The notes beneath the pieces were generated by a model that searched no databases, had not been told where the DNA came from, and saw only the letters and a program-made list of their open reading frames with translations. The translations under genes were made by a program, and so were the position numbers. 54,904 bases of DNA from Candidatus Fermentibacterota bacterium (GTDB taxonomy: Bacteria; JAFGKV01): assembly GCA_016928395.1 (NCBI GenBank), contig JAFGKV010000029.1, positions 1-54,904 of the forward strand, given 5' to 3'. Positions 3,346 to 54,904 of the stretch are shown here, piece by piece (position 1 is the first letter of the stretch; each line of letters starts with the position of its first letter).

Positions 3346-5994
3346 CTACAGGTTTAGGTCTTCGATCATATAGAGGAGGTCCCTGCTCTTGTTTACCAGC
3401 ATCAAGACGGTCGAACTCTCAGCTCCCTTGTCGAATGCATCGATGATGAAGGATCGTGCGGTTTCTATGGGACCTCTCAATTGCTGCGGTCCGCCGCCAT
3501 CCAACCCGGTCCGCCAGATACCGGCAAACTCTTCGTACCTGGTAAAGATGAGCGAATCGCCGTCTTGGTCCCAGACGGGGAATGCGCCATCGTGAGTGAG
3601 TCTTCGCAGTTGGGTGCCGTCGGACGAAACAACCCAGATTCCGCTGCTTGCGGTGTCGGCAGGACGTACTTCTCCGCCCCATGCAATGCGCGAACCATCG
3701 GGCGACCAGCGCGGCCCGACTATCCGTGATGCCGTTGCGACGATCGTCTCAACCCCGGTGTTCAGATCACGTACCACAAGCTCAGAATGCGTCTCATCGG
3801 AACGAACGGCAGCGAGTGTCTCACCTCCGGGCGAAAGATCCGGCCAGTCCCAGCGGTCGTCTGATAATGAGGTCACCAACACCGGCAGCCCCCCCTCAAC
3901 CGGGAGCCTCCAGATTCCGGTTTTATCCGCCGCGGTCGATCGGCCCGCCGCCAGCAGGAAAGCCTCGTCTTTCGACCAGCGGACTCGCCACGCGAGAATC
4001 GAACTCACGACCGACTCGGTTCCGCTACCCACATCGATAACACTGATGGTCGGATCACGCGCTTCGCTCCCGATCACAAGTGCGAGACGATCCCCTCGCG
4101 GCGAAAGGGAAGCCGAAAGAATTCTGTCTCTCGTGAGGAATGCCGCCGGGGGCTCTTCGGGTGCCGAAGCGACGTAGACCGTTGTCGCGTCGATGTAGTA
4201 CACGAACGCGACCCGGGTTCCATCCGGTGATACCGACGGCGCCGTGCATGTTCCCGGGCCGCTGGTCAGTTGAACTGCCTTGCCCCGTACTGATGTGGCC
4301 CAGAGCCCGAACACGCTGAACGCGTCGCTGGAATAGACGATCCATTTGGAATCCGGAGTCCATGAGAGACCGTAGAGTTGAGCGCTTTGGTCGGTCAGTT
4401 GTCGGCGATCGGATCCATCGGGGCGCGCTATGAACAGATGGCCATCCCCGCCTTCGGGATTGCTCGTGGTATAGGCAATCCACTCATCGTTGGGGGACCA
4501 GCGAGGCCAGTAACCTACATCCGCTACTTTGACGATCGAGCCCTCTGGATGCCGAACGAGTATCTCTGTTCCGCTATCTGTCACCGACGCGTAGACGAGC
4601 TTGGAGCCATCACGTGAGAAATCTGCGGCGGATGCACCCTCAACGATCTTTTCGACGTTGCCGCCCAGAACGGATACCTGCCAGACATCGGGAGTGATTC
4701 TTGAGGAATCGCCTCGGTAGCTCGTGAAGAGGATGTGGTTACCGTCCGGAGTGAATTCGGGTGTAGGCCCACGAACATCCATGTCAGGAACCAGCGTGAG
4801 CAGTTCCCGTGTCCCAAGCTTGGTCAGATTGAGAGTGTGGCGTCCAGTGGCGCCGTCCGGTGCGATGACTGCAAGCAGATCTCCCGATGGGGCGAAGGAA
4901 GGCTTGATAATCCCATGGGGCAAGCCCGGGATTTCGTGGATTCGACCGGTGATCGGTCGGTCAAAGAGCCGGTAGTCCTTCGTCAAGACGCGCCCGTCAC
5001 CATGTGTCCAAAGCCAGGAGTCCTTACGGACAAGCTGTGAGACAACTACCGCCATCATGGCCAGTGCGGCGGCTCCGATTCCTAATCTCCGTATCACGCG
5101 GAGGCGAACCCAAGGCGGCCCAATCCTGCGCATGGACAGGTCGGGGCCAGGGCCAAGATCCTTGGAGTGAAGTGACGTAGAATCCTGCAGCAAGCACGAG
5201 AGATCTCGTATCATCTGCTCCGCGTCTTGATATCGCAGGGCCGAGGTTCGCTGTACGGCGCGCGCAACAATGGACTCCAGGTCCCGGGGGACTGCGGTGC
5301 AACGTGCAGACACCGCGGGGACATCCTGGTTGAGAATGGCGTGGAGTACCGCACCCGGCGAATCACTCTTGAAGGGGAGCTCTCCCACGACCATCTCGTA
5401 CAGAATCACACCCAGCGACCAGAGGTCTGTCCGGTGATCTACCGCAGTGCCTTCGACCTGTTCCGGCGACATGTAGGCGATCGTACCGAGCTTGGAGCCG
5501 GTGTTGGTCAACCGCGTCTGGTCAACCATCTTGGCGACCCCGAAGTCGAGAATCTTCGCCTCGCCCTGTGCGGTGAGCATGATGTTCGCAGGCTTGACGT
5601 CACGGTGGATGATGCCGGCTCGATGGGCCCGCGCGAGTCCTTTGGCTACCTGCGTCGCGATGCGAACGGCATCGTGGATAACCAGAGGTCCCCGTTCCAT
5701 TCTCTGCTTGAGGGTCTCTCCCTCATAGTAGGCCATGACGATGAAGAGCTGACCCTCATCGGTTTCCCCGATCTCGTGGATGATGCAGATATTGGGATGA
5801 TCCAGGCTCGAGGCGGCCTTGGCCTCACGGATGAAGCGGTCGCGTGTGGGCTCGTCCTCTGCGACGGCAGGAGGTAGGAACTTCAGCGCAACGTAACGGT
5901 CGAGACGCAGGTCCTTCGCCTTGACGACGATGCTCATCCCACCCGCGCCGAGCCGTTCGAGGATTCGATAGTGTGAGACAGTGGTGCCAATCAT
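3346..5994 (-). CDS. Membrane Ser/Thr protein kinase with beta-propeller sensor
   Basis: The protein has 882 residues counting from the ATG at 5994; a start ten codons upstream is possible but less natural. Residues 8-270 are a Hanks-type kinase: glycine loop LGAGGM at 15-20, ATP-binding K38 in VALKFL, catalytic HRDVKPAN with D132, metal-binding DFG at 150-152 and MSPEQ at 175-179. All key residues are intact, so it should be active. A single membrane helix follows at about 305-322. The remaining 550 or so residues carry repeated blades such as FAPSGDLLAV, WSPNDEWIAY and WSPDGSRIAW, typical of a TolB/WD40-like beta-propeller. This is the PknB-plus-propeller layout common in Acidobacteria and candidate phyla. 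The kinase domain is predicted to be cytoplasmic and the propeller periplasmic. An FHA-domain protein encoded 3 kb away is a conceivable phosphothreonine-reading partner, which is inference only. Confidence 0.92.
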   Translation of the reverse strand: MIGTTVSHYRILERLGAGGMSIVVKAKDLRLDRYVALKFLPPAVAEDEPTRDRFIREAKAASSLDHPNICIIHEIGETDEGQLFIVMAYYEGETLKQRMERGPLVIHDAVRIATQVAKGLARAHRAGIIHRDVKPANIMLTAQGEAKILDFGVAKMVDQTRLTNTGSKLGTIAYMSPEQVEGTAVDHRTDLWSLGVILYEMVVGELPFKSDSPGAVLHAILNQDVPAVSARCTAVPRDLESIVARAVQRTSALRYQDAEQMIRDLSCLLQDSTSLHSKDLGPGPDLSMRRIGPPWVRLRVIRRLGIGAAALAMMAVVVSQLVRKDSWLWTHGDGRVLTKDYRLFDRPITGRIHEIPGLPHGIIKPSFAPSGDLLAVIAPDGATGRHTLNLTKLGTRELLTLVPDMDVRGPTPEFTPDGNHILFTSYRGDSSRITPDVWQVSVLGGNVEKIVEGASAADFSRDGSKLVYASVTDSGTEILVRHPEGSIVKVADVGYWPRWSPNDEWIAYTTSNPEGGDGHLFIARPDGSDRRQLTDQSAQLYGLSWTPDSKWIVYSSDAFSVFGLWATSVRGKAVQLTSGPGTCTAPSVSPDGTRVAFVYYIDATTVYVASAPEEPPAAFLTRDRILSASLSPRGDRLALVIGSEARDPTISVIDVGSGTESVVSSILAWRVRWSKDEAFLLAAGRSTAADKTGIWRLPVEGGLPVLVTSLSDDRWDWPDLSPGGETLAAVRSDETHSELVVRDLNTGVETIVATASRIVGPRWSPDGSRIAWGGEVRPADTASSGIWVVSSDGTQLRRLTHDGAFPVWDQDGDSLIFTRYEEFAGIWRTGLDGGGPQQLRGPIETARSFIIDAFDKGAESSTVLMLVNKSRDLLYMIEDLNL

Positions 5995-47832: not shown

Positions 47833-48262
47833 CACAGAACCATCCGGGTCGCAGGGTTCGGGTTTCAATTCATGGGGGAACAGGTTACAGGGAAGAGGAA
47901 ACAGGGGAAAGTGCACAATGGGCAGGAAGACCCGTGCTCGCTCCCAGGCTCCGAGTGGGCAGACGGCAGGAGCCCGCGATCCGAGATCCACAGCGTCTCA
48001 TGCGCTCATCCGCATCAAGATCAATATTCGGTGGGCAAGGAAGGTCAGCCAGCGGGAAGAATCCTTCTTCTGGCAGAACTCCCATCCCTTCCACTTCGTC
48101 CGGATTGACCCGGTGGCGAACCTGTGCCCCCTCGCATCCACGGGAAAGAACAGAAGATCATCCGCGTCTCCAGGCGTGATCTGATCTTGACTTCGACGGG
48201 CCACCTGGCACTTTGTCCCCGCTGTCATTGATCTGGGCAGCCGCGCCACGGGAGGAGGTCGC
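47833..48262. other. Divergent gap between GT4 and HD-GYP genes
   Basis: About 430 bases between two divergent starts show no supported gene. Open frames reading through it lack ribosome sites. No convincing promoter or repeat was recognised beyond GGAGGAGG at 48251-48258, which serves the HD-GYP gene. Confidence 0.5.
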
Positions 48263-49843
48263 ATGACAGAAATGCACGCTACGACCATCGCAGCCTCACA
48301 GGATGACCTCATCGCTCGGGTCATGGCGCTGGCACCCCTACCCAGCCTCACCCATGAGGCTCATCGCAGCGCCGACGCATTGATTCGGGATCTGCTGTCC
48401 CAACTCCGGAGCGATTCCGCCTTCTTGAGTTTTGATAGCCTCTTCAAACTGGTTTCCCACCTTGCGACCATCGGCGACCCTTCTGCCGCGGAATCAATCG
48501 CACGCATGAGTGCCGATCATTTTACCGGCGAGGATCGACCGATGTGCGCGGTGTCAATGCTGAACCTCGCGGGTCGCTCCTGCTACGACCAGTGCGCATT
48601 CGATGATGCGGAACACTGCTTCTCCCGTGGGCTCACTCTCGTTCCCAAGCCCGACGTGAGGCTTCAGACGCCCGTGCTGCTGATCAACCTGGCAAAGCTG
48701 TACACGGAGATGGGCAGATTCAGCGACGCCTTGAAGAAGTACGACGAGGCCAAGCGAATCGTCCGCTCCACGCTCAGTGGCGTGTTCGCAGATCTAGACT
48801 TCTTCCTTCCCCACGAAGTCGTGGGCCTTATCGTCAACAATACTGGATGGGTGCATCTTCGGACTGCCCGCGGGGCCGGCAACGACCCTGGACTCCTGAG
48901 ACAGGCCGGCAAGTCATTCGACGCGGCCCTGGGTCTTCCTCTGCATCCCAGAACCCGGCTTATCGCCTTGGGAAACCGTGCCGAGACCTATATCCGGCTA
49001 AATGACACGCGCAAAGCCGAGCGCATCCTGGGACCCCTCGAAACGGAATGCCTTGCCAATGGGCATCGGCTTCTGCCCCTGATCCATGGTAGATGGGCCC
49101 AGGTCTGCGCCGCCCGTGGTGATATCCTGTCCGCGGTGGAGTGGTCCAGGAGAGCCCTGCGGTCAAGTCTCCTGGCGGGCAACCCTCGGCAGGAGTTGCG
49201 GATTGTCGAGGTCATTGTCGACATCCTCCGCACCCTGCTGTCTGGGGTCTCTGACCCTCTGACTGCGCTGGGATCAACTGGAGAGCCCGTAGTCGCCCAT
49301 GTGCTGGAGTTGCTCCAGAGCAAGGATACCTACACCGGCGGCAATCACTCCGCGCGGGTCGCCAGCCTTGCCCGGAAGGTCGCCTGCGTAGGCGTGGATG
49401 ATACACCCACGCGGCAGCGATGGATTCGGCGCGTAGAACTCGCCGGGCTGCTGCACGACATGGGTAAGCTCTGCATTCCGTGGAGCTTACTGAACAAGGT
49501 CTCACCTCTGTCCAGCAGAGATTGGCAGCTTCTCAAGGCCCATACGACCATGGGGAAGACTATGTTGGAGAGTATCGGGCTCGGCCAGTTGGCCCTTGTT
49601 GCCGGCGGTCACCATGAACGGCCTGACGGCCATGGCTATCCAACCGGCTCGCCGAGCAGGCGACCGGAGCCTGCCATCGTAGCCGCTGCCGATGCCTTCG
49701 AGGCCATGACGTCGCCATCTCGCGTGTATGTGCGCCCCAAGACCCCCTCGGAAGCCCTGTGGGAGATCCGCAAGGCATCCGCTACCCAGTTCCGACCGGA
49801 GGTGGTCAAGGCCATGGTAGCAGTGCTGCAGCGACAGACCTGA
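48263..49843 (+). CDS. TPR-containing HD-GYP cyclic di-GMP phosphodiesterase
   Basis: The product has 526 residues; ATG at 48263 has GGAGGAGG about five bases upstream. Residues about 85-320 are TPR-like helices (CAVSMLNLAGRSCYDQCAFD, VLLINLAKLYTEMGRFSDAL, KKYDEAKRIV). Residues about 340-525 are an HD-GYP domain: HSARVASLARKV, LLHDMGK (H398, D399), HHERPDGHGYP (450-460, GYP at 458-460) and AAADAFEAMTSPSRVY. The core motifs are present, so phosphodiesterase activity on cyclic di-GMP is expected. The TPR half likely senses a partner protein. No membrane segment is present. It may oppose the GGDEF protein at 32115, 16 kb away. Confidence 0.9.
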   Translation: MTEMHATTIAASQDDLIARVMALAPLPSLTHEAHRSADALIRDLLSQLRSDSAFLSFDSLFKLVSHLATIGDPSAAESIARMSADHFTGEDRPMCAVSMLNLAGRSCYDQCAFDDAEHCFSRGLTLVPKPDVRLQTPVLLINLAKLYTEMGRFSDALKKYDEAKRIVRSTLSGVFADLDFFLPHEVVGLIVNNTGWVHLRTARGAGNDPGLLRQAGKSFDAALGLPLHPRTRLIALGNRAETYIRLNDTRKAERILGPLETECLANGHRLLPLIHGRWAQVCAARGDILSAVEWSRRALRSSLLAGNPRQELRIVEVIVDILRTLLSGVSDPLTALGSTGEPVVAHVLELLQSKDTYTGGNHSARVASLARKVACVGVDDTPTRQRWIRRVELAGLLHDMGKLCIPWSLLNKVSPLSSRDWQLLKAHTTMGKTMLESIGLGQLALVAGGHHERPDGHGYPTGSPSRRPEPAIVAAADAFEAMTSPSRVYVRPKTPSEALWEIRKASATQFRPEVVKAMVAVLQRQT

Positions 49844-49992
49844 AAGGAAATGAGGAATGCAGACAGAGCAAAGCCCCCAATAACTGCGACTTCATCCCCG
49901 ATTCGCCGAATCGAGAAGCCCCATGTGCTGACGGCGGATGAGGTCGTGCGTCAGCTACGCGCCGGGCCTGCCGGCCCTCGCGGCGTTCGAGA

Positions 49993-51192
49993 TCAGGAGG
50001 CCGCTTCGGGAGCGCTCTGCAGCATCGTCTCAGCGGCGGCCGGATCCAGTGGTGCGCCGCGCAGAAGCATGCCTTCCACCTGCTTGGCGAGTGCCTTGTT
50101 GCCGATGACTATTGCCCCGGCCAGCCGGCTTTCGTGCAGCAGGAGCTTCCCGTAGGAGAAGGCCGCGGCATTTTCGCGCCGCACTACGGTGAACCCCTCT
50201 TCGGGTGGATCTACCACCCCCATTGAGCTGACATCAATCCCCATGACCTTGAGCGCCGTGATGGGAGGAGTCTCCCTATACCGCTCGTTGCCGCCGGCCA
50301 TGTTGGCGGCAGCGACGCGTGCCTGCGCCTGGGCCACCGGTACGATTGCCCAGCAGCGGCCCTCATGGATAGCCGCATCACCCGCCGCGTAGATATCGGG
50401 GGCACTGGTGCGCATGGCGTCATCTACCTGCACGCCCCGAGACACCTCCAACCCGGCAGCTTCGGCCAGTGCGGTGTTGGGCCGCACGCCCGCCGCGACA
50501 ATCACGAGTTGTGCCCGAAGTTCACGACCACTGCTCAGGGTCACGCCAGTCACCGAGGCCTCGCCCACGATGACGTCCACGGAGTCCGCCAGATACACCG
50601 CGAAGCCCTGCCCCCCGACAAAGGCCTTGAGGATAGCTGCCCCCTCGGCATCGAGCTGGAGCGGCATCAGCCGAGGCTGGAGTTCCACCAGTGACACCTG
50701 AAGACCGAGGGTCTGCACGCCGCGGGCCGCCTCCAGCCCCAACAGCCCTCCGCCTATGACCACCGCCTCCCGGCACCGCGCCGCGTACTCCCGGATCGCC
50801 TGCGCGTCTGCCAGGGTGCGGATGGTGAACACACCGCGAATCTCGCGCCCCGGAATGGGGGGCACAAAGGGAGAACTGCCGGCAGCACAGAGCAGCCGGT
50901 CATACTCGACCTTCGTCCCATCTGCCAGCGTCATTGTATGCGCGTCCGGCGACAACCGGGTGACCGGGGCCCCCAGGTGCAGGGTGATCCCCTTCCGGGC
51001 GTACCAATCCTCCGTGCGGAGGATTACCCTTTCCAGAGGCATGGTGCCCGCAAGGTAGTCGGTAACATGGGGACGATAGTAATAGGCGTAGGGCTCCTCG
51101 GAGTAGACATGGACCTCGCCTGTTCCCCCCTTGGCAAGCTCCACCGCGGCGGCCATGCCCGCGACCCCATTGCCGATGATCAGATGTTTCAT
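49993..51192 (-). CDS. NAD(P)/FAD-dependent oxidoreductase (NirB-N/rubredoxin-reductase type)
   Basis: The product has 399 residues from the ATG at 51192 (GTG one codon upstream is an alternative). An FAD-binding GxGxxG (IIGNGVAGMAAAVELAKGG) opens the protein. EEPYAYYYRPHVTDYLAG is characteristic of the nitrite reductase NirB N-domain and rubredoxin reductase group. The NAD site is VVIGGGLLGLEAARGVQTLG, and the second FAD motif is PDIYAAGDAAIHEG. The C-terminal domain is present, but there are no Bfd, sirohaem or redox-active CxxC motifs, so it must pass electrons to a separate partner such as a rubredoxin or ferredoxin. Whether it serves the peroxide-defence proteins at 18.6-19.8 kb is speculation. 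Confidence 0.88.
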   Translation of the reverse strand: MKHLIIGNGVAGMAAAVELAKGGTGEVHVYSEEPYAYYYRPHVTDYLAGTMPLERVILRTEDWYARKGITLHLGAPVTRLSPDAHTMTLADGTKVEYDRLLCAAGSSPFVPPIPGREIRGVFTIRTLADAQAIREYAARCREAVVIGGGLLGLEAARGVQTLGLQVSLVELQPRLMPLQLDAEGAAILKAFVGGQGFAVYLADSVDVIVGEASVTGVTLSSGRELRAQLVIVAAGVRPNTALAEAAGLEVSRGVQVDDAMRTSAPDIYAAGDAAIHEGRCWAIVPVAQAQARVAAANMAGGNERYRETPPITALKVMGIDVSSMGVVDPPEEGFTVVRRENAAAFSYGKLLLHESRLAGAIVIGNKALAKQVEGMLLRGAPLDPAAAETMLQSAPEAAS

Positions 51193-51489
51193 CACTGAGC
51201 GTATCCTCCCGGAGTATGTCGGAATGAGATCATCGGACCAGCAGTCCTCACTGCCCTCACTGCCGCGTGATCGTTCACTGCCGCTGTGTGTGGCCGTTTT
51301 GGGCCGTTGTCAAGTTGTCAGAATGACGAGCGGCAGGGCCACCGTCGCTGCAGCCCATTCCCGACCATGCGTCTCCTGCGTCCGCCCCCACTCCGCACGT
51401 ACGGTCGCCTCGCTGCGTGACCCCGGTGCCCGATGGCTGTGCTTTGTACTCCGGAGCCTAATCCAGGCGCAACGTTCTCGGGAGGTCTC

Positions 51490-52410
51490 ATGCTGGTCTC
51501 TCACTATGCCTTGTCGGGGTGTGTCTCCGTGACCAGAGCATCCGCCGCGGTGAGCGTCGTTCTGGCGTTCTTCACGGCCACCTCGGCCGCGCAAGACCAG
51601 GTTCTCCGCTTGGATGGCGACGGCGACTACGTGGAGTTGCCGTCGGGCATCTTCCAGGATCTGACCGAGGCGACCATCGAGGCATGGATTCGGTGGGACG
51701 ACTTCGGTTACTTCTCGCAACCCATCGGCTTTGGGGTGCGCGAAGGATGGCGGGCACTGGCCATCAACAATGCCCCATATTCCCCGACACTCCATTACTT
51801 CATTCATGTCGGAATGGAGCGGCATCTCATCATCATCCCGGAGATCCTCAGACTGGGCCACTGGTACCATATCGCGGCGGTGTCCGGTCACGGAGGCATG
51901 AAGCTTTATCTGAATGGCGTCCTGGTCGGCTCCGATCCATACGGGGGTAGCTTCGACAGCATCGCGACCACACAGCACTGCTACCTCGGCAAACCCCACT
52001 GGGCGGCCAACGCCGACTTCAAAGGATGCCTTGACGAGGTGCGAGTGTGGAGCATGGCGAAGAGCGACGACGAGATCCGCAGGAGCAGGCATCAACACCT
52101 GCGGGGAGATGAGTCCGGCCTCGCCGGCTGGTGGACTTTCGATGGGGGCGACGCCGCCGACTCATCATCCCACCGGAGTCATGGCGTGTTGCGGGGTGAC
52201 GCACGGTGCGCAGAAGCGGATCTCGCCGGCGCGGGCGAGTTGCCGCGCCCCATTGCTCTGTCGGGCGTAGTGGCAGATGTGGAGGGTGCCCGCCTCCCGA
52301 ATGCCACGGTGACGCTGGAGCATGATTACCAACTGGTTGTTGCCGGATCAACAGACGACAGAGGGAACTTCCGACTCGTCACCTGGCCCAGACCGGGCGA
52401 GGGGGATTGA
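51490..52410 (+). CDS. Secreted LamG-domain protein, probably truncated
   Basis: The product has 306 residues; ATG at 51490 follows GGAGGT by a few bases. A signal peptide (ASAAVSVVLAFFTATSAAQ) precedes a concanavalin-like LamG/laminin-G fold: LRLDGDGDYVELPSGIF, ATIEAWIRWDDFGYFSQPIG, HWYHIAAVSGHGGMKLYLNG and GCLDEVRVWSMAKSDDEIRR, ending GLAGWWTFDGGDAADSS. Residues about 260-306 start a carboxypeptidase-regulatory-like domain (GVVADVEGARLPNATVTLE, GSTDDRGNFRLV) that stops after about 45 residues, shorter than this fold, and the DNA then passes into low-complexity sequence. The gene therefore looks cut off at its 3' end. Relatives known to me continue into receptor or further beta domains. Confidence 0.82.
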   Translation: MLVSHYALSGCVSVTRASAAVSVVLAFFTATSAAQDQVLRLDGDGDYVELPSGIFQDLTEATIEAWIRWDDFGYFSQPIGFGVREGWRALAINNAPYSPTLHYFIHVGMERHLIIIPEILRLGHWYHIAAVSGHGGMKLYLNGVLVGSDPYGGSFDSIATTQHCYLGKPHWAANADFKGCLDEVRVWSMAKSDDEIRRSRHQHLRGDESGLAGWWTFDGGDAADSSSHRSHGVLRGDARCAEADLAGAGELPRPIALSGVVADVEGARLPNATVTLEHDYQLVVAGSTDDRGNFRLVTWPRPGEGD

Positions 52411-52919
52411 AGGATGTGTGATCCGATCGTGTCCATCACGGCCCCAGGGTGAAGGTGTCCCTTGAGTGAGGAGATGGGAGATAGGAGTAAGGAGATGAGA
52501 GAGTCAAGAGGTGAAGAGGGAAAGGAGTCTGCAGTAGGCAGTTCGGGCTGAACCCCGAACCCTGAAACCCGCGAGCGAAGCGAAGCGGCAGTCTGCTGTC
52601 GGCTGGCAGAGAGCTGATAGCAGAAAGTTGAGAGCTGCCGCGCAGTGGCTACGTGCCCGCTTTACACCACAGATTCGCGTTCGGCGGCTGCGGTCCCGGC
52701 GCCTGCGGTTCCCCGTAGCTTGACATTTTGCCTACTTCCCAGACAGCCCCCAGACTTGGGATGCACGACAGGTGCGTATCGCGTAGGGAGCTTGGCGAGA
52801 CCGCAGGTAGTCATGCGGCACTCCGGCCCCACTTTACTCGCAGATGGCTCGATGTTCTGAGGGCCGACCTCTCGCTCCAAGATGGCCGTTGACCGGCACT
52901 CGCGCCCCGTTATGCCTCC
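52411..52919. other. Low-complexity noncoding stretch
   Basis: About 500 bases after the truncated LamG gene contain a purine-rich tract (about 52464-52535) with GAGTGAGGAGATG and AGGAGTAAGGAG motifs shared with 40304-40326, and CTGATAGC/CTGTCGGC-type short repeats at 52590-52635. A lone TTGACA at 52720-52725 has no matching -10. No gene is supported. Confidence 0.6.
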
Positions 52920-53092
52920 CGGCTGGCAATCCGCACGAAGCTGTGCCATATCCGATTGATCTGATCACACACCCCCAACACTGCGGAGAGCCATGGCCGA
53001 CCTGTTCACGCCGCTCTTCAACGCCTCGATCCTCCGCGCCCGGCTCGGTACGTTCGCGCCTGAGCTGAGTACCGAGCTGGCTGCTGCCCTCG
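52920..53092 (+). pseudogene. Truncated first copy of a duplicated cassette (MAD..PLFN)
   Basis: The 3' end of one frame (LAIRTKLCHIRLI then TGA at 52962-52964) is followed by an ATG at 52993 opening MADLFTPLFNASILRARLG and PELSTELAAALEV. After about 33 codons the sequence loses protein character and resemblance to the second copy. The same order recurs at 54700-54904. Between the copies, nearly all differences in the MAD gene are third-position or in-frame changes, which marks it as formerly coding. The N-terminus resembles, in my memory, Eco57I-type DNA methyltransferases, with low confidence. Positions 53093-53366 hold no supported gene. Confidence 0.55.
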
Positions 53093-53366
53093 AAGTGGCG
53101 TCCTCCTTCGGCGCTGGCCCGTCATGTGGACATCGTGAGCCAGTCGATTCGTGGCAAGGCCGAAGCCGAATCGACTCTGGTGACTGGCGAATCTGTCACC
53201 CACGCTCCACACGCTCTGCGCCAACGTCTCGGCCCAGATGGCTCCCGTGTGCCTTGTCCCTTGACACACACCACCCGCCCGGCAATACTACTCCTAACAA
53301 TACCCGCCAAGCCTCTGGCCTTTGGTCACGCTCAAATCGGCGGGTTACTCCTTTGGGTGGGCTGCC

Positions 53367-54527
53367 GTGAGTGATGCCCCGCTCCCCGCGGGAAGGCCAT
53401 TCGACTACGCGGGCATGCTGCAGGACATCAAGGGTCGCATCCGTGCGGCCCAGCTCAAGGCGGTCATGTCTGCCAACCGGGAGCTGATCCTGCTCTACTG
53501 GGACATCGGCCGGATGATTGCCGAACGCCAGGAAGAACAGGGCTGGGGCGCTGCGGTGATTCCCCGGTTGTCGCACGACATCCGCAGCGAATTGCCTGAG
53601 GTGAAGGGCTTTTCGGAGCGCAACATCGGATACATGATCCGGTTTGCGCGGGAGTACGGCACCCCCCTGATTTTGCAGCAACCTGCTGCAGAATTGGAAA
53701 TCCCTGATGGCAAGGGCGAAACAAGAGCGCCGCCGCCCGCAGCGCGATGGGCCGAAACCGATCCAAGGAGGATTTTGCAGCAGCTCGCTGCGCAAATCCC
53801 GTGGTTCCATAACGTGATCCTGATGGAGAAGGTCAAAGACCTCTCCATCCGCGCCTGGTACATGCGGCAGACCATCGAGCAGGGCTGGAGTCGAAGCGTG
53901 CTCACCACCATGATCCAGAGCGCCTCCCACGAGCGGCAAGGCCGCGCCGTCACGAACTTCCCCCGCCGCCTCCCGCCCGCGCAGTCGGATCTGGCTCGAC
54001 AGACGCTGAAGGACCCCTACGTCTTCGACTTCCTGACGCTGGATGAGTCCTTCCGCGAGCGCGAGCTGGAAACCGGCTTGGTTCAGCATTTGCAGAAGTT
54101 CCTGATCGAACTCGGCCGGGGCTTTGCCTTCGTCGGGCGGCAGTACCACATGGACATCGGCGACGAGGATTACTATCTCGACCTGCTCTTCTATCACCTC
54201 ACGCTCCGCTGCTTCTTCGTGATCGAGCTCAAGCGCGGCGCATTCAAGCCGGAGTATGCCGGCAAAATGAACTTCTACCTCAGCGCGGTGGACGATCGCC
54301 TCCGCCATCAAGACGACCGTCCGTCCATCGGCCTGATCCTCTGCCAGGAAAAGAATCGCGTAGTGGCCGAGTACGCCCTACGTGACATGCGAAAGCCGAT
54401 TGGGATTTCCGAGTATCAGCTTACGCACGCGCTGCCGCGGGAACTGCAGTCGGCCCTGCCCACGATTGAAGAAATCGAGCGGGAACTCAGCCAAGAGGAG
54501 AGCGCGGATACCCCCGAAAGAGGGTGA
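53367..54527 (+). CDS. DUF1016 (YhcG-like) PD-(D/E)XK nuclease family protein
   Basis: The product has 386 residues if the GTG at 53367 is used; an in-frame TTG at 53322 is an alternative. The N-terminal DUF1016_N helical region reads DIKGRIRAAQLKAVMSANRE, LLYWDIGRMIAERQEEQGWG and LSHDIRSELPEVKGFSERNI. The C-terminal nuclease part has WYMRQTIEQGWSRSVL, DPYVFDFLTLDESFRERELE, FVGRQYHMDIGDEDYYLDLL and FFVIELKRGAFKPEYAGKMN, giving a D...ExK active site (LDLLFYH, VIELK). A short insertion with two LQQ(L/P)AA-type repeats splits the N-region at about 110-150. DUF1016 proteins are often embedded in type I restriction-modification loci and phage-defence islands. Here the gene lies between two copies of the MAD..PLFN cassette, which supports such a setting. 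Confidence 0.88.
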   Translation: MSDAPLPAGRPFDYAGMLQDIKGRIRAAQLKAVMSANRELILLYWDIGRMIAERQEEQGWGAAVIPRLSHDIRSELPEVKGFSERNIGYMIRFAREYGTPLILQQPAAELEIPDGKGETRAPPPAARWAETDPRRILQQLAAQIPWFHNVILMEKVKDLSIRAWYMRQTIEQGWSRSVLTTMIQSASHERQGRAVTNFPRRLPPAQSDLARQTLKDPYVFDFLTLDESFRERELETGLVQHLQKFLIELGRGFAFVGRQYHMDIGDEDYYLDLLFYHLTLRCFFVIELKRGAFKPEYAGKMNFYLSAVDDRLRHQDDRPSIGLILCQEKNRVVAEYALRDMRKPIGISEYQLTHALPRELQSALPTIEEIERELSQEESADTPERG

Positions 54528-54699
54528 ATCAACCAGCGTCACCATCAAGGCAGCCAAGGGCCAAACCATGCTCCAGTGTGTCGGCAAACGACCGCTGACA
54601 CGCCTGAACGCCTCCCCGGCACAGAAGGTCGAGGTTTTCGGAGAAGATCCCGAATCCGGAGGCCGGCTCTACGACCCATACCGTGTCGAGCCACCCACG

Positions 54700-54904
54700 G
54701 GGTTGGCAATCCTAACGCCAACCGGCCATATTCGACTGGTCAACCATCTGAACACCAACATTGCGGGAAACCATGGCCGACTTCAAGCCGCTCTTCAACG
54801 CCCGCATTCTCCGTGTGGGGCTGGCGAAGTCCTCGCCGGAGCTTGCTGCGGTGGGGAACGTGTCGTCTTGGTCAAGAGGAGAGCGGGCGCACGGGATGTT
54901 TGTA
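54700..54904 (+). CDS. Second cassette copy: partial MAD..PLFN gene at window edge
   Basis: An ATG at 54773 opens MADFKPLFNARILRVGLAKS, homologous to the start at 52993, and runs off the window. Upstream, 54700-54772 matches 52920-52992 (GGCAATCC, CCATAT.CGA, CAACA.TGCGG blocks). The frame at 54773 stays open but becomes atypical after PELAAVGNVSSWSRGER, so this copy may also be damaged. An overlapping open frame from ATG 54568 through the window end (EVFGEDPESGGRLYDPYRVE, LAILTPTGHIRLVNHL) may be the preceding small gene, whose 3' end the first cassette also preserves. Function is unresolved; a restriction-modification methylase is a tentative guess. Confidence 0.4.

Follow-up and report, generated by a model that had tools for sequence, protein, structure and literature searches.

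At one end of a contig from Candidatus Fermentibacterota bacterium, the gene for a DUF1016 nuclease directly follows a leader, made up of promoter and abiF RNA, of the kind that normally belongs to the suicide-defence gene abiF in AbiF-type (type III) modules. The reading considered probable here, if only modestly so, is that this leader was brought there by recombination between duplicated cassettes, and that it attenuates the nuclease gene in cis and serves as an AbiF antitoxin in trans. What the sequence documents are the parts themselves, with their order and spacing, the presence of a sister AbiF cassette elsewhere in this genome, and an RNA conserved without a single change. Judged by its neighbours, the nuclease stands where AbiF would be expected in a toxin-antitoxin cassette of the AbiF kind, since the same leader, promoter, RNA and 22-nt spacing precede a true AbiF gene in another contig, C261. 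The window, meaning the whole stretch of 54,904 nucleotides analysed here, ends where contig C260 of the genome assembly ends, and its relevant features are the following.

52788-52892, + strand: 3' end fragment of a putative gene (containing ALRPHFTRRWLDVLRADL), no Pfam match
52993-53370, + strand: leader ORF, first copy (MADLFTPLFN..), 125 aa, probably a gene fragment; from the ORF listing
53261-53289, + strand: sigma-70-like promoter, TTGACA-17-AATACT, 10/12 matches
53303-53345, + strand: abiF RNA (RF03085), which acts as RNA antitoxin in AbiF systems; Rfam 43.5 bits, gathering score 37
53367-54527, + strand: DUF1016/YhcG PD-(D/E)XK nuclease, PADLOC PDC-S02, 386 aa, with an inferred GTG start
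54529-54756, + strand: methylase-like fragment (similar to the N-terminal part of site-specific DNA methyltransferases), tblastn E=8e-3
54773-54904, + strand: start of the leader ORF, second copy (MADFKPLFN..), running off the contig edge; from ORF and repeat comparison
54818-54904, no strand assigned: terminal 87 nt, identical to those of contig C261 and interpreted as a repeat at which the assembly broke

Two related gene starts of the form MADxxxPLFN, at ATG 52993 and ATG 54773, frame the DUF1016 gene 1.78 kb apart, as a sequence-only reading of this DNA had already proposed. Three direct repeats flank the nuclease gene, all in register: 62 nt at 53005-53066 and 54782-54843 (74%, spacing 1777), 27 nt at 52975-53001 and 54755-54781 (85%, spacing 1780) and 17 nt at 52921-52937 and 54701-54717 (82%, spacing 1780). 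A sequence search matched the second copy to the first region at 72% with E=3.4e-10, so the repeat is not a product of chance. The same reading had called the first copy truncated, and this holds: the ORF at 52993-53370 is at best a gene fragment, because it overlaps the promoter and the RNA gene and matched nothing in Pfam, PADLOC or NCBIfam. The contig ends within the second copy. Missing from the earlier description are the promoter, the abiF RNA and the methylase-like fragment at 54529-54756. Just before the first leader start, a 17-nt inverted repeat (88%, at 52412-52428 and 52958-52974) encloses 529 nt. A 41-bp stretch at 52700-52740, which contains TTGACATTTTGCC, matches contigs C47 (88%) and C52 (85%) of the same genome and was dropped as a common short repeat.

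The peptide of the leader ORF was found in its own genome only (four genomes searched), a tblastn search of plasmids with the MADxxxPLFN peptide gave nothing at E up to 10, and as plain DNA, across 60 related genomes including its own, the leader gave just one chance-like 35-bp match outside its own genome. The homologue in C261 (MADLLEPLF..) shares 57% amino acid identity with the first window copy over 42 aa. Differences between the two fall at codon positions 1, 2 and 3 of the MAD frame 14, 21 and 27 times, respectively, no more than a weak coding signal.

The protein between the two leader copies looks intact and is a candidate anti-phage nuclease. Its identity as a DUF1016 nuclease, assigned in the sequence-only reading, is borne out by matches to PF06250 (2.2e-67), PF17761 (9.5e-40) and PADLOC PDC-S02 (2.5e-149); it has the DUF1016_N and YhcG_C domains of the DUF1016/YhcG family together with intact PD-(D/E)XK residues. 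D272 and K289 are near-invariant across 80 relatives, the best 80 of 546 DUF1016 loci in GTDB genomes (best identity 67%), and E287-L-K is present, with E287 itself off the near-invariant list. Translation presumably starts at GTG 53367, with ATG 53415 a possible start. No solved structure matched the protein at E up to 0.1. The label PDC-S02 is taken here to denote a defence candidate only.

Upstream of this gene, the promoter was the one found in a scan of 53150-53450, against a mean of 0.0 in shuffles, and the RNA scores above the Rfam gathering threshold. An RF03085 search of the own genome, run with stricter filters, returned two sites only, the one in the window and one at 4533-4575 of C261. 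The distance from RNA end to effector start is 22 nt in both cassettes (GTG 53367 in the window, ATG 4597 in C261), and in 12 other loci with an Abi ORF (L014, L015, L018, L103-L109, L114, L116), where starts were chosen mechanically, the start follows the RNA by 11-44 nt. Folded over 53 nt, the window RNA is predicted to adopt the two-stem hairpin of the family (-18.6 kcal/mol, z -2.82). A hand-made hairpin scan (304 matches) was too permissive, and Rfam was used instead.

The sister cassette lies in C261, a 5,867-bp contig of the same genome that ends in the same 87 nt as the window and is ordered as leader ORF (MADLLEPLF..), RNA, Abi_2 gene, tail fragment and second MAD.. start. Window 52990-53354 matches C261 4229-4584 at 79%, window 54748-54904 matches C261 5708-5867 at 90%, and window 52805-53038 matches C261 5545-5778 at 79%; the fragment that comes after the AbiF gene resembles window 52788-52892. 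The RNA of C261 is above the Rfam gathering score, and the gene downstream of it is Abi_2 (PF07751, 2.1e-54; PADLOC AbiD, 1.8e-73), its protein matching the solved Abi family protein 8vz6 at E=4.9e-57 and carrying the HEPN-type motif R204-N-L-C-A-H209. C261 therefore has an Abi_2/HEPN gene right after the RNA, as an AbiF toxin-antitoxin should, whereas in the window DUF1016 holds that place and an own-built Abi_2 profile found no Abi_2 in the 1.5 kb after the RNA (L013). Also by the AbiF cassette, on the minus strand of C261 (L006) at 3950-4078, is a fragment of a ParE-like toxin (PF05016, E=0.0014, short of the curated threshold).

Similarity between the two cassettes varies from element to element. 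The leader agrees at 172 of 234 aligned positions (73.5%), the promoter segment 53236-53302 at 57 of 67 (85%), the RNA at 43 of 43 and the stretch from RNA end to start codon at 18 of 27 (67%); the next 28 positions past the start codon agree at 8 (29%) and are unrelated. This drop at the start codon places the exchange point at the beginning of the coding region. The longest identical run between the cassettes is 55 nt, and 43 identical positions on a background of 73.5% have p of about 2e-6 if independence is assumed. On the DUF1016 side, too, the RNA is thus the element that has changed least, through selection or recent gene conversion, and its identity could reflect recent conversion of the 55-nt tract rather than selection.

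The region looks like a mosaic of fragments of defence genes, surrounding a single intact-looking nuclease in the window and a single intact-looking AbiF in C261. The sequence-only reading had seen a defence or restriction locus undergoing duplication or insertion. Its defence part and its exchanged or duplicated cassettes stand, given PDC-S02 and the AbiF-type cassette in the sister contig, but a working restriction locus is not supported. Among the ORFs listed for 48000-54904, the range covered for restriction-modification pieces, the sole such piece is the 76-aa stretch at 54529-54756, which resembles a methyltransferase N-terminus and is cut off before the second leader start; the window holds no complete methyltransferase gene beside DUF1016. 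The best tblastn match of this stretch has E=8e-3 (53% over 34 aa) and the other 18 records have E of at least 2; 10 of the 19 matched records are annotated as site-specific DNA methyltransferase, and the fragment has no Pfam or NCBIfam match. In L077, DUF1016 has a similar stretch beside it, with 55% identity across 22 aa and E=0.006 in a comparison limited to the 80 loci.

How the borrowed leader might work can be proposed by analogy with C. difficile. There, the RNA RCd22 is made from a promoter of its own, reduces abiF expression in cis by way of termination and, in trans, binds AbiF directly and so neutralises it (PMC12373285). The contig end would accordingly be a scrambled defence-cassette locus in which the leader was captured by recombination between cassettes. 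The window RNA would be made from its own promoter, its hairpin would limit read-through into the nuclease gene, and the released RNA could neutralise the AbiF protein of the C261 cassette in trans. The nuclease would thereby inherit AbiF-style regulation, while its locus would supply extra AbiF antitoxin. Against the role in cis, a 72-nt fold of the window RNA is predicted to prefer a non-hairpin pairing, its minimum-energy structure involving bases immediately ahead of the DUF1016 start (z -0.18), and a terminator scan found no + strand terminator. The U-tract 3' of the RNA is weak (TTACTCCTTT). In the 72-nt fold of the C261 RNA the hairpin is the optimum, but with a stability like that of shuffles (z -0.14). 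Four other abiF loci were folded, of which L104 gave the outer stem, L014 a close variant, and L338 and L353 an optimum other than the hairpin.

A serious though unlikely alternative is that recombination simply left an intact-looking abiF RNA behind, so that RNA and promoter are now irrelevant and DUF1016 is transcribed independently of them or by read-through. Among DUF1016 loci, the nearest ones manage without the RNA: Rfam found none at gathering score in 78 near loci (L097 and L098 of the 80 were outside the scan), so that the RNA does not usually accompany DUF1016. A search of the genomes to which 40 of these 80 loci belong gave one abiF RNA, followed by an Abi_2 gene. Furthermore, 11 of 49 cellular abiF RNAs outside the own genome have no Abi_2 ORF within 1.5 kb downstream, some of them apparently orphaned by decay. 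A leftover would, however, be expected to drift like its surroundings, whereas the RNA is unchanged at all 43 positions and the promoter has kept 85%, against 73.5% for the leader.

These 49 RNAs come from RF03085 searches of 145, 40, 395, 398, 244, 247, 192, 185 and 8 genomes, some genomes being present in several sets; the searches over 40 genomes used stricter filters, losing weak matches. Thirty exceeded the cut-off; the other 19 fell short of it (E up to 0.001). Within 1.5 kb downstream, 23 of the former and 15 of the latter have an Abi_2 ORF or ORF fragment, according to an Abi_2 profile made from 12 loci; 10 of these 12 themselves belong to the 38 positives. Those lacking it are L111, L338, L353, L345, L351, L360 and L361 over the cut-off, and L112, L343, L348 and L356 below. 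In L361 the ORF after the RNA begins, by reading of the sequence, like a broken Abi gene.

Four of these loci have the abiF RNA before a non-Abi_2 gene, each a single case. In L111 the RNA accompanies an HTH protein (PF01381, 1.5e-10). In L338 (1501-2341) an RNA of 48.9 bits lies 31 nt upstream of a gene of the uracil-DNA-glycosylase superfamily (PF03167, 7.9e-10), and genomes of the same taxonomic order have an RNA one base different before Abi_2 (L335-L337). In L353 (1501-2322) an RNA of 38.4 bits is followed 22 nt on by a short ORF and then by Fic (PF02661, 9.3e-13; PADLOC PDC-S04), and the flanking ORFs read like putative methylase and specificity subunits. Recurrence of this Fic arrangement in the family was considered and rejected: among 8 genomes, 4 had matches, and the other 3 of these carry an Abi_2 ORF or fragment. 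Lastly, in L356 (176-1724) an RNA of 34.8 bits, below the cut-off, lies 200 nt upstream of an AbiEi/AbiEii pair. Elsewhere, L367 and L368 show, by reading, the order abiF RNA, Abi_2 and a putative site-specific DNA methyltransferase-like ORF.

Similar RNAs occur in viruses. Two abiF core patterns hit at least 217 viral-contig loci (L118-L334, IMG/VR), of which one was dropped for a motif touching the locus end. Among the matches listed, the 216 motif places form 144 sequence clusters; 179 are followed by 1.2 kb or more of sequence, 147 show 5 or more of the 6 stem pairs in fixed register, and 62 have a tRNA within 500 nt, compared with 25 at random positions. An Abi_2 ORF anywhere in the locus was seen at two of the 216. 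Examples of the motif are L130 1360-1396 and L164 76-113. Rfam confirms abiF in 16 of 20 short hand-picked loci from the first pattern. Two exact patterns of the window RNA and promoter had no match in viral contigs. Rfam also recognises abiF in phage Acj61 (L365 2001-2037, 58.0 bits) and phage CRP-143 (L366 1501-1538, 50.8 bits), with no annotated AbiF within the stretches viewed. A region of lactococcal phage sk1 reportedly protects against AbiF, as is ascribed to Rince et al. 2000; the SK1 record contains no abiF RNA even at E up to 5, and this explanation was rejected for sk1.

The rarity of AbiF beside abiF-type motifs in viral contigs (2 of 216 places, among the matches listed) makes phage-borne abiF RNAs candidate decoys against AbiF, and suggests a simple form of counter-defence. 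A precedent is ToxIN with the phage-borne pseudo-ToxI, an RNA antitoxin of which phages can carry a mimic (PMC3475682), although both the toxin and the RNA family are different. PMC9964418 mentions an abiF sRNA of a cyanophage and three Rfam entries from bacteriophages; beyond these, the literature searched, in part accessible, gave no report of free abiF RNAs as phage decoys.

Such free-standing copies also bear on an improbable second alternative, namely that the window RNA is a spare AbiF antitoxin placed upstream of DUF1016 by chance and kept against AbiF toxins here or on invaders, with the nuclease unaffected. Stand-alone copies are not unusual, in that 7 of the 30 over-cut-off cellular RNAs outside the own genome have no downstream Abi_2 ORF and 214 of the 216 viral motif places, among the matches listed, have none, and RCd22 itself acts in trans (PMC12373285). 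Nevertheless, the exact AbiF-like 22-nt spacing and the homologous C261 leader point to a cassette origin. Very unlikely is a third possibility, that the RNA is the true partner of the DUF1016 protein and binds and restrains it as an RNA antitoxin. Position and conservation are as in a type III antitoxin, and the single cases (Fic in L353, AbiE in L356, UDG-family in L338, HTH in L111) place abiF RNA before other genes. Yet none of the 78 near DUF1016 relatives carries the RNA at gathering score, and the RNA does not differ from its counterpart in the C261 AbiF cassette, nor does it show signs of having adapted. The known structure, as described in a review (PMC12737573), has one RNA on each AbiF monomer and inhibition through bulge nucleotides, presumably a misfit with a PD-(D/E)XK protein.

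Least credible of all is an assembly artefact, whether an AbiF-cassette leader misjoined to the DUF1016 contig or contigs from different strains: the assembly does have 343 contigs and an estimated contamination of 2.97%, the two contigs do have their last 87 nt in common and a 55-nt run is indeed identical between the cassettes, but this run is shorter than the 87 nt common to the contig ends, the window leader differs from C261 on both sides of it, and GC is 0.617 versus 0.621. The terminal sequence was in no contig other than C261 (40 of 58 candidates scored). The shared end of C260 and C261 is probably an assembly break at a repeat, and the sequence beyond 54904 would therefore be common to two loci.

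Capture of the leader by recombination between cassettes hence remains the preferred account, and it suggests that defence genes may borrow one another's RNA control switch. A broader and rather speculative proposition is that the abiF promoter-RNA leader is an exchangeable control and antitoxin module for different defence genes, with DUF1016 and the single cases of Fic with its short ORF, UDG-family, HTH and AbiE as instances, and that phages counter its AbiF arm with free-standing abiF RNAs, often beside tRNA genes. AbiF and its RNA have been proposed as ancestors of Cas13 and its guide RNA (PMC12373285 and PMC12737573), which gives weight to the question of whether the RNA stays with one toxin or can move between effectors. 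The locus is a natural swap experiment in which promoter, RNA and spacing are the same and the effector is different. It makes testable both the cis control of a foreign gene by an RNA leader and the use of one defence gene's leader as another's antitoxin. The literature searched, with preprints and most subscription papers outside it, gave no report of an abiF RNA upstream of DUF1016.

Set beside known systems, the locus looks like an unusual variant, an AbiF-type promoter-RNA leader before a different defence effector. With the AbiF/AbiD (Abi_2) type III-like systems, such as AbiFCd-RCd22 of C. difficile and PbAbiF (8vz6), it shares the promoter, the RF03085 RNA, the short spacer and the start codon; it differs in that the coding gene is a DUF1016 nuclease instead of an Abi_2/HEPN RNase, and in having one RNA motif where RCd22 has two. 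With the DUF1016/YhcG proteins, known as PDC-S02 single-gene candidates, it shares the full length, both Pfam domains and the catalytic D/ExK residues, and it is set apart from them by its abiF RNA leader, which Rfam detected in 0 of 78 near relatives.
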